Assembly (NCBI GenBank): GCA_016790075.1 | Contig: JAEUPP010000039.1 | Coordinates: 248,001 to 312,000, forward strand | From: Rhodanobacteraceae bacterium | GTDB lineage: Bacteria; Pseudomonadota; Gammaproteobacteria; Xanthomonadales; Rhodanobacteraceae | Direction: 5' to 3' | DNA: 64,000 nt | Shown: in pieces, positions 3,303 through 52,561 of the stretch | Layout: the number at the start of each line of letters is the position of its first letter | How positions within the stretch are numbered: the first letter of the stretch is position 1 | The notes under the pieces: generated by a model | The model's database searches: none | What the model saw: the letters and a program-made list of their open reading frames with translations, nothing else | What the model was told of the DNA's origin: nothing | Position numbers and translations under genes: made by a program

Positions 3303-3749
3303 ATGAAATTCTCCCGCCTGCTTGTTCTCGCCGCCCTGTCTGCGCCTCTGATCGCCGCTGCCGCGCCCAACGCAACCGCGCCCAAGGGCGCCGCCAAAGG
3401 AAGCACCACCTTTGCCGTAAGCGCGACCAGTTTCGCGGCCTGGACCATAAACAACACATCGAATCCGCCGCTGACGCTGGAGCGCGGCCGCACCTATATT
3501 TTTGACCTTACCGGCGTGTCCGGCGTCCATCCGTTCAACATCAACACGACCAATACGACCGGCAGTGCGTCGCGCTACAACCAGGGCGTGACCAATAACG
3601 GAGCGACCGGCAATACCGACATCACCTTCGTGGTACCGGCCAACGCGCCGAGCTCGCTGCACTACAACTGCGGCAATCATGCGGCCATGAACGGCAGCAT
3701 CACGGTCATCGATCCCGACGCGATTTTCGCCAGCAATTTCGACGCCTAA
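3303..3749 (+). CDS. Secreted cupredoxin (plastocyanin/azurin-like)
   Basis: This 148-residue protein begins at an ATG preceded by an AGGAA ribosome-binding site. Residues 1-21 form a Sec signal peptide. The mature domain has the type 1 copper ligand pattern: His76 in HPFNI, then Cys123-x2-His126-x2-Met129 in HYNCGNHAAM. It is therefore likely a periplasmic or exported copper electron-transfer or copper-binding protein. It ends in IFASNFDA, a tail shared with two other secreted proteins in this window. Its stop overlaps the stop of the convergent TonB receptor gene, and a paralogue lies on the far side of that receptor. Confidence 0.85.
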   Translation: MKFSRLLVLAALSAPLIAAAAPNATAPKGAAKGSTTFAVSATSFAAWTINNTSNPPLTLERGRTYIFDLTGVSGVHPFNINTTNTTGSASRYNQGVTNNGATGNTDITFVVPANAPSSLHYNCGNHAAMNGSITVIDPDAIFASNFDA

Positions 3750-5887
3750 TCGCCAGAACCCCAGTCCCAGCGCACCCCGACCGACAGCGTGCGGTCGGGG
3801 CCGGGCTCGTAGTAACGCGCATTGCCTTCGTTGACGATGACCGAGCCTATGTAACGCCGGTCAAACAGGTTGTCGATGCGCGCGAACGCCAAGCCCGCAC
3901 CTGCGCGCGAGGTCCAGCGCCGACCGAATTCAAGCTGCGAAATCGCATAGCCTGGCGCGCGCTGACTACCGCTGTCGTTGACCTTCACATCGCCAACAGC
4001 GACGAGCTGCAGGGCCGCATTCCACTCGCCGCGGTACCAGTCCAATCGGCTCGCAAACTGATCGCGCACCGTACCCGGAATGCGTGTGCCCGCTGCGACA
4101 GCCTGGTTTGGACTAGCGCAACCCGCCGTCGCACAGATCGGGAATGTATCGCGAAACCTTGCCGCGAGCCGTGTATACGCGAGCTGCCATCGCCAGCTCG
4201 CGCCTAGCGGCAGACTCGTGGCCAATTCAAGGCCTTCGCGCCGCGCCCTGCCGACATTGCGAAAGCTGCTGCGCCCGCCGAGGTTGCGTGCAACGGCGAG
4301 TTCATCCCGAGTGTCGGCGCGAAACACTGCCGCCTCGACTCGCGCAGCACCAGCGCGCCATTTGAAACCGAGCTCGCCATGACGGCTGCGCGCAGGCAGC
4401 AGATCGAAAGCCAGGCCCGCGGCGCCATCAGCGCGATAGCCCAGCTCATTGAGCGTCGGTGTCTCGAAACCGCGGCCGAACGACAGATAAAACCGCGTGT
4501 CGGCGCGCGGTGCAAAACTGAGCCCGGCTACCGGCGTTGTTTGCGTATAGTCGGCGCTACCGCTGTCGTCAGGGTTCAGGCCAGTCACGTACTGGTCGCG
4601 CGACAGGTAACGGACGCGGCTATGCCGCACGCCCGCCAGCAGCGACCAGCGCTCGGCCATATTCCAGGTGGCCTGCAGATAGGGATCGAAATTACGCGCC
4701 GTATTCCGCTCGTCACGACGCAAGGCGCCGCGTACTCCCAGCGTATCGCCCAGAAAATTTTCAAAACCGCGGCGCTGTTGTCGCAGCGTATCGAACGCAA
4801 CGCCTGCAGATAATCCGAATGGCTGCCCCGCTCCGCCACGGTGCCATGACCAACGCAGGTCGCCGCCGGCGTAGCTGGCGTCGAGATCGACGACACCGCC
4901 GGCACTGGTCGGGGCATTCTGCGCCGCACGCGGCACGCCCAGAAACTGTTCGATCTCGCGATGTCCGGCGTAGGCCATCGCCCGTAACGACGACTGCGGC
5001 GAGATGGCGTGATCGTAGACCACGCCCAGTTGATCCTGCCGCACCGACTTGCGGGTGGCATAGGCCCGCGCCACGGAAGTTGCTGCACGCGGGCTGGCCT
5101 GCGCTTCAGCCCGCGTAAGGCCCAGGGGATCCTGTGCAAACGGGGAGTCGAACCGGTTCACGTGCAGCGCCAGACGCCCTGCCTCACCCAACAGTTTGCG
5201 CAAGGTAAACGTTGCCACTTCACGGCGCGCAGCGCTGTGTTCGCGAAACCCGTCACTATCGCTGCGCGAGATCGCCGCGTGATAACCGAAGTCACTCCCG
5301 CCGCCGCTGAGGCTGGCCGCGTAGCCGCGGCTGCCATAGCTGCCGGCGAGGGCCTGCATGCGCCCGCGCAGCGACGCAGCCCCGTCGCTGGTAAACCAGT
5401 GCACTACACCGCCCGACGAATTGCCGTATAGCGCCGAAAACGGGCCACGCAGCACTTCGATACGATCACCGGCGAACAGCGGGAAATGCGCGATCTGACC
5501 TTGCCCGTCCGGCATGGTAGCGGGAATACCATCGACGTAGAGGCGCAAGCCGCGCACGCCGAAAGTCGCGCGCGAGCCAAAGCCACGGATCGACAGCTGC
5601 GTGTCCTGTGCCTGATTCTGACGCTCGCGCGCGAGCAAGCCGGGCACACCGACCGTGACGCCGCCAAGATTTCCCGGCGGAACGCCAAACTCATCCAGAT
5701 CGACTACGCTGACCGAGGCGGGCAATACAAACGCCTCCTCCCAGTCCAGCCCCACCGAAGAAACCACGATGCCTGGCAGCGACACCGCAGCATCCTGGGC
5801 TGCCGCCGACTGCACAGCGAACCCGGCGGCCAGGACCACACCCGTTCGCATGACGCCCACTCGTATCGTCTTCACATCCTGATCCAT
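3746..5887 (-). CDS. TonB-dependent outer-membrane receptor
   Basis: This 713-residue protein has an N-terminal plug domain with the typical stretch from 'QLSIRGFGSRATFGVRG' through 'LYVDGIPATMPDGQGQ' to 'IEVLRGPFSALYGNSSGGV', followed by a beta-barrel rich in alternating aromatic strands. A second Met at residue 13 (MRTGVVLAAGFAVQSAAAQ) begins a convincing signal peptide and may be the true start, at 5851. Such receptors import siderophores, metals or other scarce ligands using TonB/ExbBD energy. The substrate cannot be read from sequence. The flanking cupredoxin genes hint at a copper-linked role, but this is inference. The C-terminus (VRWDWGSGD) does not end in the usual terminal Phe. Confidence 0.9.
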   Translation of the reverse strand: MDQDVKTIRVGVMRTGVVLAAGFAVQSAAAQDAAVSLPGIVVSSVGLDWEEAFVLPASVSVVDLDEFGVPPGNLGGVTVGVPGLLARERQNQAQDTQLSIRGFGSRATFGVRGLRLYVDGIPATMPDGQGQIAHFPLFAGDRIEVLRGPFSALYGNSSGGVVHWFTSDGAASLRGRMQALAGSYGSRGYAASLSGGGSDFGYHAAISRSDSDGFREHSAARREVATFTLRKLLGEAGRLALHVNRFDSPFAQDPLGLTRAEAQASPRAATSVARAYATRKSVRQDQLGVVYDHAISPQSSLRAMAYAGHREIEQFLGVPRAAQNAPTSAGGVVDLDASYAGGDLRWSWHRGGAGQPFGLSAGVAFDTLRQQRRGFENFLGDTLGVRGALRRDERNTARNFDPYLQATWNMAERWSLLAGVRHSRVRYLSRDQYVTGLNPDDSGSADYTQTTPVAGLSFAPRADTRFYLSFGRGFETPTLNELGYRADGAAGLAFDLLPARSRHGELGFKWRAGAARVEAAVFRADTRDELAVARNLGGRSSFRNVGRARREGLELATSLPLGASWRWQLAYTRLAARFRDTFPICATAGCASPNQAVAAGTRIPGTVRDQFASRLDWYRGEWNAALQLVAVGDVKVNDSGSQRAPGYAISQLEFGRRWTSRAGAGLAFARIDNLFDRRYIGSVIVNEGNARYYEPGPDRTLSVGVRWDWGSGD

Positions 5888-6051: not shown

Positions 6052-6489
6052 ATGTCCCTAATGCTCACCCTGTTCGTCCTCGCCACCGCCGCGGCAAGCA
6101 CCAGTGCGCTAGCCGCCGACAGCACGCCACACGGCAGCGTCACGCAGACCTTCCAGGTCAGGGCCAACGGTTCCAATTCGTGGACCATAGACGGCCAAAC
6201 AAATCCAGCGCTAGTCCTGCAGCGAGGCAACACCTACGTGTTTCACCTCAACAGCGTCGGTGCCACCCATCCGTTCAACATCAATACGATGAACGCACCG
6301 GGCCCAAACTTCCGCTACGAAAACGGCGTGACCAACAATGGGGCGACGGGAACAACCGACATTACCTTCATCGTGCCCAACGACGCGCCAGCCACGCTGC
6401 ATTACAACTGTGAGAATCACGTGGGTATGAACGGTCCGATCACGATCACCGCCGCCGACCGGATCTTCAGCAACAATTTCGATCTATAG
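6052..6489 (+). CDS. Secreted cupredoxin, paralogue of the one at 3303
   Basis: This 145-residue protein starts at an ATG 6 bases after GGAG. A signal peptide (residues 1-22, ending ALAA) precedes a cupredoxin domain with predicted ligands His73 (THPFNI), Cys120, His123 and Met126 (HYNCENHVGM). It is clearly paralogous to the protein at 3303: both contain 'GVTNNGATG' and 'DITF[VI]VP'. The C-terminus RIFSNNFDL carries the same tail type. The two genes bracket the TonB receptor, so the three may form a functional group. Whether they carry electrons or bind copper for uptake cannot be decided here. Confidence 0.85.
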   Translation: MSLMLTLFVLATAAASTSALAADSTPHGSVTQTFQVRANGSNSWTIDGQTNPALVLQRGNTYVFHLNSVGATHPFNINTMNAPGPNFRYENGVTNNGATGTTDITFIVPNDAPATLHYNCENHVGMNGPITITAADRIFSNNFDL

Positions 6490-6777: not shown

Positions 6778-6845
6778 TATCCCGCATTTCTCACATCCCT
6801 TTTACTGCGGCCGCCGATACGAAAGGGTGTGAGAAAGGCGGGCTA
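6778..6845. repeat. 68-bp palindromic extragenic repeat, copy A
   Basis: The sequence folds into one long hairpin with outer arms 'cccgcatttctcaca' and 'tgtgagaaaggcggg'. It matches the reverse complement of copy B (44438-44505) at 61 of 68 positions by hand alignment, including the loop segment 'tactgcgg..gccgatacgaa'. This makes it a REP- or MITE-like element dispersed in this genome. Its right end overlaps the chrA stop codon (6843-6845), so the chrA stop is supplied by or conserved within the repeat arm. Confidence 0.8.
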
Positions 6846-8144
6846 GACCCAGCTGGCCAGCAGCCCCGCTGCTGCCGACAGGGCCAGCGTGACGACTACG
6901 CCATAGCGCAGCACGAAGAGACTGCAGCACGCAACCGCAATGGGAACCAGAGAGGCCGCTACAAACGAAGCGGGATCAGGGACAAGCAGGTTCAGCGGCC
7001 CAGTACGCTGCTGTGCCACCTGCGCAAACATTACGTGAACAATAAACCAGACTGAGACGTTGAGAATCACCCCCATGACGGCAGCCGTGATATACGACAG
7101 GGCTCGCTGCAGACGGGGGTGAGCATTCAATCGCTGCAGGTGGGGGGCTCCCAGGAACACCCACATAAAACTCGGCAAGAACAAGGTCCAGATGGCGAGC
7201 GCGCTCGCGGCCGTTGCCATCAGCCAGCCAATAGGACCGGGATACTGGCCGCTACCGGCGAGGAATGCGACGAACTGCAGCACCAGAATCAGCGGCCCCG
7301 GGGTCGTCTCCGCCAGGCCCAGGCCATCGGTCATTTGCGCAACGCTCAGCCACCCCTGCTGTACCGCGTGATCCGCCACGTAACCGAGCACCGCATAGGC
7401 ACCGCCGAATGTGACGACCGCCACTTCGCTGAAGAACAGGGCAATGCGAACAAGCAGGTGATCCGTTCCGAGCAGCACAACGAGTAGCGTTGTGGGGAGC
7501 AGCCAGGCCGCCGCGGTGGCAAGCACCAGCCGGTAGTTGGGCCGATCAGGCGGGCACTCCGGTCCAGCGGAGTTCACCGGCGGCACCTGCGCCGAGAAAT
7601 ACCCACACAAGCCACTTGCCAGCACAGTCAACGGGTAAGGAACAGCAAGCAGGAAGTTGGCGAAAAACGCGGTGACGGCAACCACGATCGCGCCACGAAA
7701 TCGCAGGGCGCGCCGCGCCAAACGGACTACAGCCTGGACCAGGATCGCCATCACGGCACATTTGACGCCGAGCAAGGCCGCAGCCACACCAGGCAGTTGA
7801 GCAGCGCTCACATAGGCCCAACAAAGCCCATACATGACCAGCACACCGGGCAGGACGAACAGCCACCCGGCAACGAGCGCGCCGCGCCAGCCCGCCCGAT
7901 GCCAGCCTATATACGTCGCCAGCTGTTGCGCCTCCGGACCGGGCAGCAACATGCAAAAGTTCAAGGCGGCAAGAAACTGGCTTTCGCTCAGCCACTTCAA
8001 CTCGTCCACGATGCGTCGATGCATCAGCGCGATTTGACCCGCCGGCCCGCCAAACGACAGCAGTCCTATCTTGGCCCAGACTGCGACGTCATAACCCTGG
8101 CGCGGCCGGGACTCGCTTGTTGGCAGCTCACCGGACTGCATCAT
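6843..8144 (-). CDS. chrA: Chromate transporter ChrA
   Basis: This 433-residue, two-domain CHR-family membrane protein exports chromate from the cytoplasm. The N-terminal repeat shows the family motifs 'FGGPAGQIALMHR', 'LNFCMLLPGPEAQQLATYIGW' and 'LPGVLVMYGLCWAY'; the C-terminal repeat shows 'VVTFGGAYAVL' and 'GLAETTPGPLILVLQFVAF'. About ten to twelve hydrophobic segments are visible. The start overlaps the chrB stop (ATGA type), giving the classical chrB-chrA coupling. The stop codon lies inside the palindromic repeat. The protein looks intact, so efflux could still work although its partner is damaged. Confidence 0.95.
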   Translation of the reverse strand: MMQSGELPTSESRPRQGYDVAVWAKIGLLSFGGPAGQIALMHRRIVDELKWLSESQFLAALNFCMLLPGPEAQQLATYIGWHRAGWRGALVAGWLFVLPGVLVMYGLCWAYVSAAQLPGVAAALLGVKCAVMAILVQAVVRLARRALRFRGAIVVAVTAFFANFLLAVPYPLTVLASGLCGYFSAQVPPVNSAGPECPPDRPNYRLVLATAAAWLLPTTLLVVLLGTDHLLVRIALFFSEVAVVTFGGAYAVLGYVADHAVQQGWLSVAQMTDGLGLAETTPGPLILVLQFVAFLAGSGQYPGPIGWLMATAASALAIWTLFLPSFMWVFLGAPHLQRLNAHPRLQRALSYITAAVMGVILNVSVWFIVHVMFAQVAQQRTGPLNLLVPDPASFVAASLVPIAVACCSLFVLRYGVVVTLALSAAAGLLASWV

Positions 8145-10302: not shown

Positions 10303-11604
10303 TCAAGTTGCCGCTGCGGCGGATGCCGTGTCCGCGGTCTGATCCTGGGGCCCTGCTGCAAACGCAGCCTTCATTTTCTCGTCGTCGCGCAAGCCTTCCC
10401 AGCGCGCGACGACCATGGTTGCAACCGCATTGCCGATCACGTTCGTGATCGCGCGCGCTTCGGACATGAAACGGTCTACACCCACCACGAGTGCAACACC
10501 TTCGACCGGCACCTTGCCTGCCAATGCACCCAGCGTGGCGATCAGCGTGGTAAGACCCGCCCCCGTGATGCCGGCCGCCCCCTTGGAGGTAAGCAGCAAT
10601 ACACCCAGCAAGACGAGCTCGTCGTACAGGGTCAACGACACACCCAGCGCCTGAGCAATAAAGATCGCCGCCATGGTCAGATAGATACAGGTGCCATCAA
10701 GATTGAACGAATAGCCGGTCGGCAACACCAGGCCGACGACAGAGCGATCGCAGCCCGCCTGCTCCAGCCGCAATAGCAGGCGCGGCAAGGCGGATTCTGA
10801 CGAAGACGTGCCGGCTACCAGCACGATCTCGCGTCGTATGTACACCAGAAAGCGCCACAGCGAAAAACCCGACAGGCGGGCGACAACACCCAGCACGCCG
10901 AACACGAACGCGGCACAGGTCGCGTACACACAGAGCATGAGCCAGCCCAGCGAAACCAGCATGCCAAGGCCAAACTTGCCTATCGAAAATGCCATCGCAC
11001 CAAACGCACCGATAGGTGCGGCACGCATGATCAGCGCGACGATCTTGAACAGCACCTGCGACAACTCGTCGAGCAGGTCAAGCAGACGTCGCCCGGCCGG
11101 CCCCGCCCCCGTCATCGCAACGCCAAACAGCACAGCGACCAGCAGCACCTGCAGCAGGTTGTTGTCGACAAAGGCCGAGACCAGGCTCCTGGGGATGATG
11201 CCAAGCAGGAAACCGGCAAGCGTCTGTTCCTTGGCCGCCTCGACGTAGCTCGCCGTCTTGTTCGGATCGAGATCACCCGGCTGTACGGCGATGCCGACAC
11301 CCGGCTGTGCCACGTTGGCCACGACCAAGCCAATCACGAGCGCTAGCGTCGTCAGCACTTCAAAATAGACCAGCGCCTTGAAACCTATGCGCCCGGAATG
11401 ACGCAGGTCGCCCATGCGCGCCATGCCGACGACGATGGTTAGAAAAATCACCGGGCCAATGATCATCTTGACCAGGCTGATAAAGCCGTCGCCGAACGGC
11501 TTCATGCGCTGACCAAGCTGTGGGTCGAGATGGCCGAGGGCAATGCCGACTACGACGGCGACCAGCACCTGGACGTAGAGATTTTTATAGGCACCGCGCC
11601 ACAT
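10303..11604 (-). CDS. dctA: C4-dicarboxylate:cation symporter DctA
   Basis: This inner-membrane carrier imports succinate, fumarate and malate with protons or sodium (DAACS family). From the ATG at 11604, which has AGGAG seven bases upstream, the product is 433 residues, the family length; an upstream Met at 11700 lacks this support. Visible motifs are '[17 protein letters not shown]', '[19 protein letters not shown]' (serine-rich re-entrant loop) and '[19 protein letters not shown]', then '[19 protein letters not shown]'. A bidirectional terminator separates it from the upstream csp gene. DctA would feed the dicarboxylates oxidised by the sdh operon at 57-60 kb. Confidence 0.95.
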
Positions 11605-50860: not shown

Positions 50861-52561
50861 TCACTCGAACGAGTCCGCGAACAAGCGTGGTCCGCATTCG
50901 CTCACCGCAGCAGCGCGGCCATCGACCCAAGCCATGTGGCTGCCCATCGCGGGCGCGGCAACGAACTGCTGCGCCAGTTCGCGCAAGGTCATGCCAGCCG
51001 TGCCAATGAACAGCCGCGAATCGTAGAACTGGACATCGTCATAGGCACCTTCGTGCGCGCGGCAGTCTGGCATCCATAGTGCTGAGCTAGGCACTAGCCC
51101 GCTGTTGTCGGCACCTGTGGCCAGTTCGCTTTGCGTTGCAAATCCGGACAGGAAAGCGTTGGCTTGCGTCAGCAACCGTTGCTGGTGCGCCGACCCCGGC
51201 CCCACCGGCAGCAGCGGAGGACAGGGCGAAAAACCCAGTGCCGCGCAATGGCTGTAGGCTGCATAGGGTCCCCATGGCAGCGCGTGCCCAAGACCGCCCT
51301 GGGTGTGCTCCGCATTGGGATCGCGAAAATCCTCGCGCACCAACGCAGGTGTAGTCTCGTGATGCAGCCGCACATGCAAACGATCACGGCACTTCCAGGC
51401 GTCACCGCCGGCCTGGTGCGCTGCGACACACGACGCATCGAACACGGTTGCCAGACTATCGGCTGGCGAAGTGAACCAGGCCCGGTATTGTTCAAAATAC
51501 CATTCGTTGTCGTTGGACGGATCGCGGAAGAAATCACCACCGTCGTAGGCGCCCAGTGCCATCGAATTGCCGCTGTAGTCGTGCGCAAACAGCCCGGATG
51601 GTGACAACGTATCGAACGCCGCCTCGTTCTCGGGCGTGGGTAGGAAATTGGCGTCGTGGATGACACGGATATCGCCATCGAACCCGGCATACCCGCGCAA
51701 CTGCGAAGCAATACGATCGATGTTGTGATAAAGGCCATGTGCCGCACCGGAGTGGCCGACGAACACGACCTGGTCGGCGTCGGCGATCGACGGCAGCGAC
51801 ACCGGCACCGCCGCAACACCGCCATTGCCGTCGTCCACATAGGTGGTGTACTGCAGCCCTGCCCCACCGGCACCACTGCCGCGCAGCGTATCCAGCGTCA
51901 GGCGCACGATAAGCTGGCCATGCTGGAACAGCGTATAGGCGATTGGTGCCGCCGGCGGCGGCCGTTGCGCTGTCACCGCGTGCGTAGCGCGACCGTTATA
52001 ACGGTCGTAACTGCATTTTTCTATGCGTACGCGGTGAAACCGTGCGAACACCGGATTGCGCACCAGATTCGGCTTGAGCAATCCCTCGGAAGAACCACCG
52101 CTGCCAAAGGTCTTCATCAGCGGCTTGCCGGCCGAGCCCATTTCATCGGCCTCCGCCGGAGTTGCGTAGAGTTGTGCGCACTCCTGGCCGCTCTCGAAAC
52201 TGCCGTTGTCATCGAGATCCTGTGCGCTGCAGGCGCCACCGCCGGTCATTGTGATCAGCCAGCGCGCGGACGGGCCGCCCTCGGCCGGATCGACGTAGAT
52301 GACCGGGCGCGTGCCGTCCAGGCAGCGCACGTTTACGTCGTCATTCAATGTCACCCGGGTGAATTCGCGCAGTTGCGCCGGCGTGACGGGTAGCGCTGGT
52401 GCTGGCTGTGGTACGGCAGTGGGGGACACCGCGCAACGCAGCGACGCGGCCCAGTACGAGTCGCTGCAGGTATTGCCTGTTCCGCCCGCGTTGGCACCAC
52501 CGCCAGTTGCCAGGGCGATCAGACTCATCAGGCGCCAGCCATAACCCGGTTTCTGTAACAT
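50861..52561 (-). CDS. Secreted pectinacetylesterase/Notum-like hydrolase
   Basis: This 566-residue protein begins at MLQKPGYGWRLMSLIALATG (52561), a signal peptide. The catalytic fold is suggested by the oxyanion segment 'WLITMTGGGACSAQDLD', 'FHRVRIEKCSYDRYNGRAT', and the nucleophile elbow 'VVFVGHSGAAHGLYHNIDRI', where Ser lies in GHSGAAHG (pectinacetylesterases have GCSAGG). Many cysteines point to an extracytoplasmic location. The C-terminus CGPRLFADSFE shares the tail type of the two cupredoxins. Substrate unknown; a carboxylesterase acting on acetylated polysaccharide or lipids is plausible. Confidence 0.8.
   Translation of the reverse strand: MLQKPGYGWRLMSLIALATGGGANAGGTGNTCSDSYWAASLRCAVSPTAVPQPAPALPVTPAQLREFTRVTLNDDVNVRCLDGTRPVIYVDPAEGGPSARWLITMTGGGACSAQDLDDNGSFESGQECAQLYATPAEADEMGSAGKPLMKTFGSGGSSEGLLKPNLVRNPVFARFHRVRIEKCSYDRYNGRATHAVTAQRPPPAAPIAYTLFQHGQLIVRLTLDTLRGSGAGGAGLQYTTYVDDGNGGVAAVPVSLPSIADADQVVFVGHSGAAHGLYHNIDRIASQLRGYAGFDGDIRVIHDANFLPTPENEAAFDTLSPSGLFAHDYSGNSMALGAYDGGDFFRDPSNDNEWYFEQYRAWFTSPADSLATVFDASCVAAHQAGGDAWKCRDRLHVRLHHETTPALVREDFRDPNAEHTQGGLGHALPWGPYAAYSHCAALGFSPCPPLLPVGPGSAHQQRLLTQANAFLSGFATQSELATGADNSGLVPSSALWMPDCRAHEGAYDDVQFYDSRLFIGTAGMTLRELAQQFVAAPAMGSHMAWVDGRAAAVSECGPRLFADSFE

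Follow-up and report, generated by a model that had tools for sequence, protein, structure and literature searches.

A short C-terminal tail shared by exported proteins of Lysobacterales as a candidate sorting tag for a second type II secretion system

The window, the whole 64-kb stretch of DNA that was analysed, contains three genes whose predicted exported products end in the same kind of short tail. The genes and tails are as follows.

3303..3749, + strand: secreted cupredoxin-like protein 1, 148 amino acids, with an N-terminal signal peptide, MKFSRLLVLAALSAPLIAA (open reading frame, signal-peptide heuristic, weak cupredoxin match)
3723..3746, + strand: tag IFASNFDA at the C-terminus, with DPDA ahead of the tag; stop codon at 3747-3749 (sequence)
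6052..6489, + strand: secreted cupredoxin-like protein 2 (open reading frame, signal-peptide heuristic, 54% identity to protein 1); the start at 6052 was chosen, and an upstream ATG also passes the heuristic
6463..6486, + strand: tag IFSNNFDL at the C-terminus, with AADR ahead of the tag; stop codon at 6487-6489 (sequence)
50861..52561, - strand: secreted pectinacetylesterase-like protein, 566 amino acids (PF03283, E 1.4e-11; signal-peptide heuristic)
50864..50884, - strand: tag LFADSFE at the C-terminus, with GPR and no Asp ahead of the tag; stop codon at 50861-50863 (sequence)

The three tails reported by the first-pass annotation are all present, each directly before its stop codon. The same annotation had placed them on two unrelated folds. 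The pectinacetylesterase assignment holds on its PF03283 match, while the cupredoxin identity of proteins 1 and 2 is likely, if weakly supported: neither has a Pfam match at 1e-3, and the best match of solved structure for the two is a copper nitrite reductase (E 0.004). The AlphaFold model of protein 1, built on an alignment of only two rows, has a mean pLDDT of 47. Since the two cupredoxin-like proteins are paralogues, the window alone amounts to two independent cases of the tail. Its three motif matches compare with a mean of 0.63 after shuffling, and three were reached in 2 of 100 shuffles, so that on its own the window is thin evidence for a tag. Between the two cupredoxin-like genes lies a gene for a TonB-dependent receptor (3746-5887, - strand), convergent with cupredoxin-like gene 1 and overlapping its stop codon with its own; the best NCBIfam match of the receptor is PqqU (638 bits, under the 1200-bit cut-off of that model). 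Downstream of the second cupredoxin-like gene is a chromate efflux transporter (6843-8144, - strand; TIGR00937, 211 bits, over cut-off).

Across the 5.6-Mb source genome, a DNA search pattern encoding [ILMV]-F-x-[DNSG]-x-F-[DE] finds 66 matches, against 3 for the reversed pattern used as a control. A stop codon follows in frame 0-8 residues past the motif in 40 of the 66, and these, together with the LFADSFE of the window, whose first codon lies outside the pattern, make up 41 terminal carriers. The motif refined from their tags is D-x-[ILV]-F-x-[DNSG]-[GNDS]-F-[ED] with 0-8 trailing residues, in which the positions from [ILV] onward are constrained by the search pattern itself and the upstream Asp position is unconstrained. 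This Asp stands two residues ahead of [ILV]F in 34 of the 41 tags. At position 4, 33 tags have D or N and eight have S or G, and 24 tags have G at position 5, within the limits that the pattern sets on both. The core form D-x-[ILV]-F-x-[DN]-G-F-E recurs at the ends of dozens of unrelated secreted proteins, both in the source bacterium and in many relatives. The motif is followed by no residue in 14 tags, by one in 13, two in three, three in five, four in three, five in one and eight in two; 27 of the 41 thus have 0 or 1 trailing residue and the remaining 14 have 2-8. All 41 coding 21-mers are distinct, which rules out a DNA-level repeat or uptake sequence and implies that selection acts on the peptide rather than on the DNA.

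The 26 remaining matches in the genome include seven that by eye lie inside exported-looking proteins (L013, L036, L039, L043, L048, L053 and L055). The motif is directly behind the signal peptide in L013 and L048 and between domains in others. Some of these internal copies may be chance, like the matches in cytosolic proteins. The initial claim that the tail comes right at the C-terminus is thus too strict, the tag being C-terminal in most cases though not in all. Pfam and NCBIfam models run on 10 tails gave none that covers the tail; two listed matches cover the residues preceding it. A literature search, with preprints and most subscription papers outside its reach, found no description of the tag; the string IFADGFE was absent there, and IFANGFE came up only under titles unrelated to protein sorting. 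The observation of the tag itself is near certain. At another locus (L061), two short open reading frames about 6 kb apart (5014-5295 and 11121-11300, both - strand) share nearly the same ending, TATDR[VL]FFGGFD, and have no recognised signal peptide.

The carriers have the appearance of exported proteins. A custom heuristic in permissive and strict forms, not SignalP, was used to call signal peptides, and a signal-peptide-like N-terminus is found by it in 36 of the 41 terminal carriers, one of the other five being cut by a contig end; this is the N-terminal Sec or Tat signal expected of cargo of a type II secretion system (T2SS). Among the open reading frames called in the fetched stretches, which include 31 of the 41 carriers, the permissive form is positive in 29/31 carriers and 122/260 other frames, and the strict form in 16/31 and 44/260, so that the tail is enriched on signal-peptide proteins by either measure. 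Pfam and NCBIfam scans of 37 carriers give a wide range of folds: subtilases, sortilin-like proteins, a zinc carboxypeptidase, a phospholipase C, GH44, pectinacetylesterase, an ExeM-type nuclease, beta-helix, DUF11, Ig-like repeats and choice-of-anchor domains of the Q, J and D kinds. The same 37 include partial matches to M36 models, six to the rhombosortase-dependent and four to the myxosortase-dependent model, not established as over cut-off.

Among the neighbours that are not carriers themselves, those of an ECF sigma factor family recur most often, at 7 loci, and those of an ABC-ATPase-like family come next, at 4. The sigma factors (TIGR02999, over cut-off) directly adjoin tagged proteins in L128, L137, L143 and L157, the last with a Ser/Thr kinase after the sigma factor. 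In L127 and L046 the ECF sigma factor is some kilobases from the tagged protein, and L059 has one without a terminal carrier.

The tag is concentrated in part of Lysobacterales. In 61 relatives of the source genome the counts of the tail pattern are strongly bimodal. The pattern anchored to a stop codon has at least one match in 103 of 249 genomes of the order, with the control almost empty. Within the family of the window, more than one such match occurs only in genera g1, g5, g16 and g26, and family f2 has more than one only in G387 (21) and G514 (27). Outside the order, 272 genomes of the class give counts mostly near their control, with a maximum of 38 against 13 (G277); a low level of the tag is conceivable in some of them, for example G248, with 16 against 2. 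In named genomes, IFA[DN]GFE followed by a stop is found in at least 120 stretches. Among the matches listed (80 titles) are Tahibacter, Dokdonella, Rudaea, Pseudofulvimonas, Marinicella, Wenzhouxiangella and many Lysobacterales MAGs, which bears out the statement of the first-pass annotation that similar tails occur in Rhodanobacteraceae; Sedimenticola and Alcanivoracaceae MAGs are among the entries labelled otherwise. Among the matches listed, 116 have a true stop, and 65 of the 82 complete frames have a signal-peptide-like start; a handful look like chance, the Bacteroidales and Ferruginibacter records being examples. A genome is here called tag-rich if it has at least five stop-anchored matches, except that G003, G006 and G007 are counted by the pattern without the stop.

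Homologues of one carrier, the phosphocholine-type phospholipase C of the source genome (L045), show the tag to be modular. Homologues occur in 30 of the 61 relatives, and the comparison covers the 19 close ones (L269-L287) of the 30 fetched loci, the distant L288-L298 being left out. The tag is found in 7/7 of those from tag-rich genomes, all of genus g1, and in 0/12 of those from tag-poor genomes. The tag-rich proteins have a conserved SDPAxG, soon followed by LF-x-[DG]-x-F-[ED] with 2-6 further residues and the end, whereas the 12 tag-poor homologues stop at or shortly past SDPAxG. The letters of the tail vary among the close homologues; the hydrophobic-Phe pair, the second Phe and the acid are kept. 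With the enrichment on signal-peptide proteins and the variety of folds, these homologues support the early view of a tag on exported proteins that is added after the fold.

A search for type II secretins reveals two kinds of GspD in the order. The first belongs to an Xps-like cluster (L210, with a GspM of the XpsM kind) and is widespread. The second lies in a gspC-gspD-gspE cluster, here named T2SS-B (L209 in the source genome), which gspF and ftsE/ftsX-like genes adjoin in several genomes; FtsE/FtsX, Rho, thioredoxin, RhlB and GspF near gspCDE were identified by eye. In the secretin tree the T2SS-B proteins split from the Xps-type with full support, with the G057 secretin at the T2SS-B base. 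GspC-B, the GspC of this cluster, has the marks of a GspC component, an HR domain and a PDZ domain encoded beside gspD and gspE.

The first-pass annotation had suggested looking for a gene family whose presence follows the tag, and this PDZ-type T2SS provides one. A panel of 80 genomes was picked to include tag-rich and tag-poor genomes of each family and searched with 11 aligned GspC-B sequences. GspC-B (E<1e-30) is present in 28/29 tag-rich and 12/51 tag-poor genomes, the line having been set after a gap was seen between 3.5e-33 (G390) and 3.9e-21 (G363). G363 and G523, with a weaker GspC match, a PDZ domain and no tags, are counted as negative. By family, the tag-rich and tag-poor fractions are 8/8 and 1/11 in f1, 2/2 and 0/18 in f2, 2/3 and 2/12 in f8, 3/3 and 2/3 in f9, and 4/4 and 7/7 in f10, with 9/9 tag-rich genomes in other families. 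The association was reached in none of 200,000 within-family shuffles, a stratification that is not a full phylogenetic correction. For scale, the same test gives a mild excess of exosortase in tag-rich genomes (family-stratified P 0.02), which is as much as common ancestry can produce by itself. An earlier marker, GspD at 500 bits or more with neighbouring pieces joined (26/28 tag-rich, 5/33 tag-poor), was dropped as crude because G048 has a high-scoring GspD that groups with the Xps-type secretins.

Presence of the system and presence of the tag are not equivalent. The 12 tag-poor genomes with GspC-B show that T2SS-B is insufficient for tags, and all 11 genomes of f10 carry GspC-B regardless of tag count; a genus in which T2SS-B has persisted may have retained many other ancestral genes too. 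G031, of the window's own family, carries T2SS-B but lacks tags, and next to its gspC is a rhombosortase gene (contig 47: 21965-23331); in this genome T2SS-B seems, by gene context, to work with the GlyGly-CTERM route. The exception in the other direction is G393, which has seven genuine-looking tags, no GspC-B, and as its sole GspD over cut-off one of the lower-scoring kind (423 bits); a gap in its 80-contig draft or a recent loss may account for it. On balance, the co-occurrence across genomes favours a tie between the tag and T2SS-B.

The PDZ domain of GspC-B is a candidate for the part that reads the tag. PulC and EpsC have the PDZ strand G-Y-R-[LV]-x-P-G. In GspC of genomes with at least 9 tags, the residue after Gly in the strand G-x-R-[LV] is V, M, L or I in 26/30, while in the other GspC it is Y or F in 15/20, as in PulC and EpsC (Fisher P 1.6e-5 across the 50 GspC, not corrected for kinship). 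The 50 are the 51 GspC less the truncated one of G408, and the 20 include those of G363 and G523. The proline of the strand is found in the alignment in 1/30 of the high-tag GspC and 10/20 of the others. High-tag genomes with an aromatic residue are G411 and G444 (Tyr, 24 and 21 tags), G336 (Phe, 21) and G455 (Phe, 9), and an aliphatic residue is present among the 20 others in G036, G041, G046, G366 and G436. The strand in GspC-B of G031 is G-Y-x-L-x-P. The trailing residues and the internal copies do not favour a strict C-terminal PDZ ligand with a free carboxylate. That the PDZ domain is the tag reader is, on this residue shift, possible at a level well short of even.

Published work on GspC provides a setting for this possibility. 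In XpsC a single helix replaces the PDZ domain, as PMC11981180 describes it. In the account of PMC12369372, the EpsC PDZ domain is required for secretion of VesB, the Ig-fold of VesB bears PDZ-dependent secretion information, and a disordered loop of PelI binds the OutC PDZ domain; PMC7949064 describes T2SS determinants that can sit in flexible loops. These cases resemble the present one in having a PDZ-bearing GspC, to which, in the PelI example, a flexible substrate loop binds. They differ in that the determinants are, in the description of PMC12369372, structural and substrate-specific, whereas here one short sequence is common to tens of presumed substrates.

The reading that we prefer, with slightly better than an even chance, makes the tail a short, linear tag for sorting, which T2SS-B reads after folding and by which it routes the bearer out. 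The bearers would be exported by Sec or Tat and then fold in the periplasm, where the folded protein would display the tag at its end or in a linker. GspC-B would capture the tag, probably via the PDZ domain, and pass the bearer to the pseudopilus and the GspD-B secretin, through which it would leave to the outside or the cell surface. T2SS-B would thus act as a second type II system beside the Xps-type system in many Lysobacterales. The sequences themselves show the tag, where it sits on exported proteins, which close homologues have or lack it, how it is distributed, and its statistical association with GspC-B and with a PDZ residue; export by T2SS-B, the need for the tag and PDZ binding are what we infer. 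Such a mechanism would fit the need of VesB for the EpsC PDZ domain, the information in the VesB Ig-fold and the binding of the PelI loop to OutC, as given in PMC12369372, and the flexible-loop determinants of PMC7949064. The first-pass annotation had proposed an undiscovered receptor; it is probable instead that the partner is a machine already known, whose signal had gone unrecognised, a receptor having the lesser probability given below.

The principal alternative, rather unlikely in our estimate, is retention at the surface: an outer-membrane or matrix receptor would bind the tag outside the cell, and T2SS-B would be only a carrier or co-inherited. The choice-of-anchor Q, J and D domains and the partial M36 matches among the carriers agree with it, since families of these kinds bear anchors elsewhere, and so do the insufficiency of T2SS-B and the tags of G393. 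Retention does not predict the shift of the PDZ residue, however, and no receptor candidate was found, the top recurrent neighbours being the ECF sigma factor and ABC-ATPase-like families. A structural role without a dedicated reader, as a cap or as a shield from C-terminal proteases, is quite improbable for the tail: a tight turn could form at [DN]-G between the two aromatics and some copies are internal, but a generic cap would predict neither the same motif after unrelated folds, nor its absence from close homologues, nor its patchy distribution. A cleavage or transpeptidation site for covalent surface attachment is a shade less probable again. The [DN]-G-F of the motif resembles legumain-type ligase sites, and D or N at position 4 and G at position 5 are common, within the pattern's limits; on the other side, S or G stands at position 4 in eight tags, and the end of every tag 0-8 residues past the motif means that no transmembrane segment follows. 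Peptidase C13 (legumain) as a partner is rejected: it is present in 24/25 tag-poor f1 genomes and missing from ten tag-rich ones (G036, G038, G039, G041, G042, G044, G049, G052, G058 and G060). In f5, G051 has twelve C13 matches, eleven of them in frames of 1267-3586 amino acids, and G040 has three such.

The terminal position and the occurrence of one tag on many folds would also suit a known C-terminal system, be it PEP-CTERM with exosortase, GlyGly-CTERM with rhombosortase, or T9SS, and this is the least probable reading. Exosortase (PF09721) is missing in 11/29 tag-rich genomes. Rhombosortase (TIGR03902) is over cut-off in only 1/29 tag-rich and in 8/51 tag-poor genomes, and both enzymes were rejected as the partner of the tag. 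Profile searches of the source genome give no exosortase match and no rhombosortase over cut-off, and the 10 tails scanned have no family-model match. PEP-CTERM/exosortase and MYXO-CTERM/myxosortase share with the tag the many-to-one logic and, in part, common carrier families (choice-of-anchor, M36-like). The 41 tags of the source genome lack both the tripartite architecture of PEP-CTERM, with a transmembrane helix and a basic cluster following the motif, and the hydrophobic helix behind the motif of MYXO-CTERM. The C-terminal domain of T9SS is likewise a helix-free tag on folded exported proteins. The signal of T9SS, known from Bacteroidota, is a whole domain some 80 residues long, while the tag has about eight residues and is found in Gammaproteobacteria. 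A close parallel in outline is GlyGly-CTERM/rhombosortase with T2SS, as described for VesB of Vibrio cholerae (PMC3237569; see also PMC6219818 and PMC13393428), where several unrelated exported proteins of one genome bear a C-terminal tag that is linked to type II secretion. The tag described here differs in having no glycine run, hydrophobic helix or basic tail, in its length of about eight residues and in its tens of carriers.

How a T2SS picks its cargo is a standing open question. A conserved signal for the outer-membrane step had not been identified so far by the account of PMC11981180, and a linear universal signal is lacking by that of PMC12369372. The tag may be a long-sought address label for T2SS-B, and if so it would be the first common linear signal for type II cargo. 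A fuller form of this proposal, in which the tail is a linear and transferable T2SS signal on tens of unrelated cargoes, read by a specialised GspC PDZ domain and having arisen within Lysobacterales as an alternative to GlyGly-CTERM/rhombosortase, is more tentative, and we regard it as possible rather than probable. With one short sequence on tens of presumed cargoes, a matching machine and a candidate reader, the choice of cargo becomes testable by single deletions and grafts. If the proposal is true, so short a tag would be usable in secretion engineering, and the tag would predict the exported proteomes of a large and mostly environmental group of bacteria.
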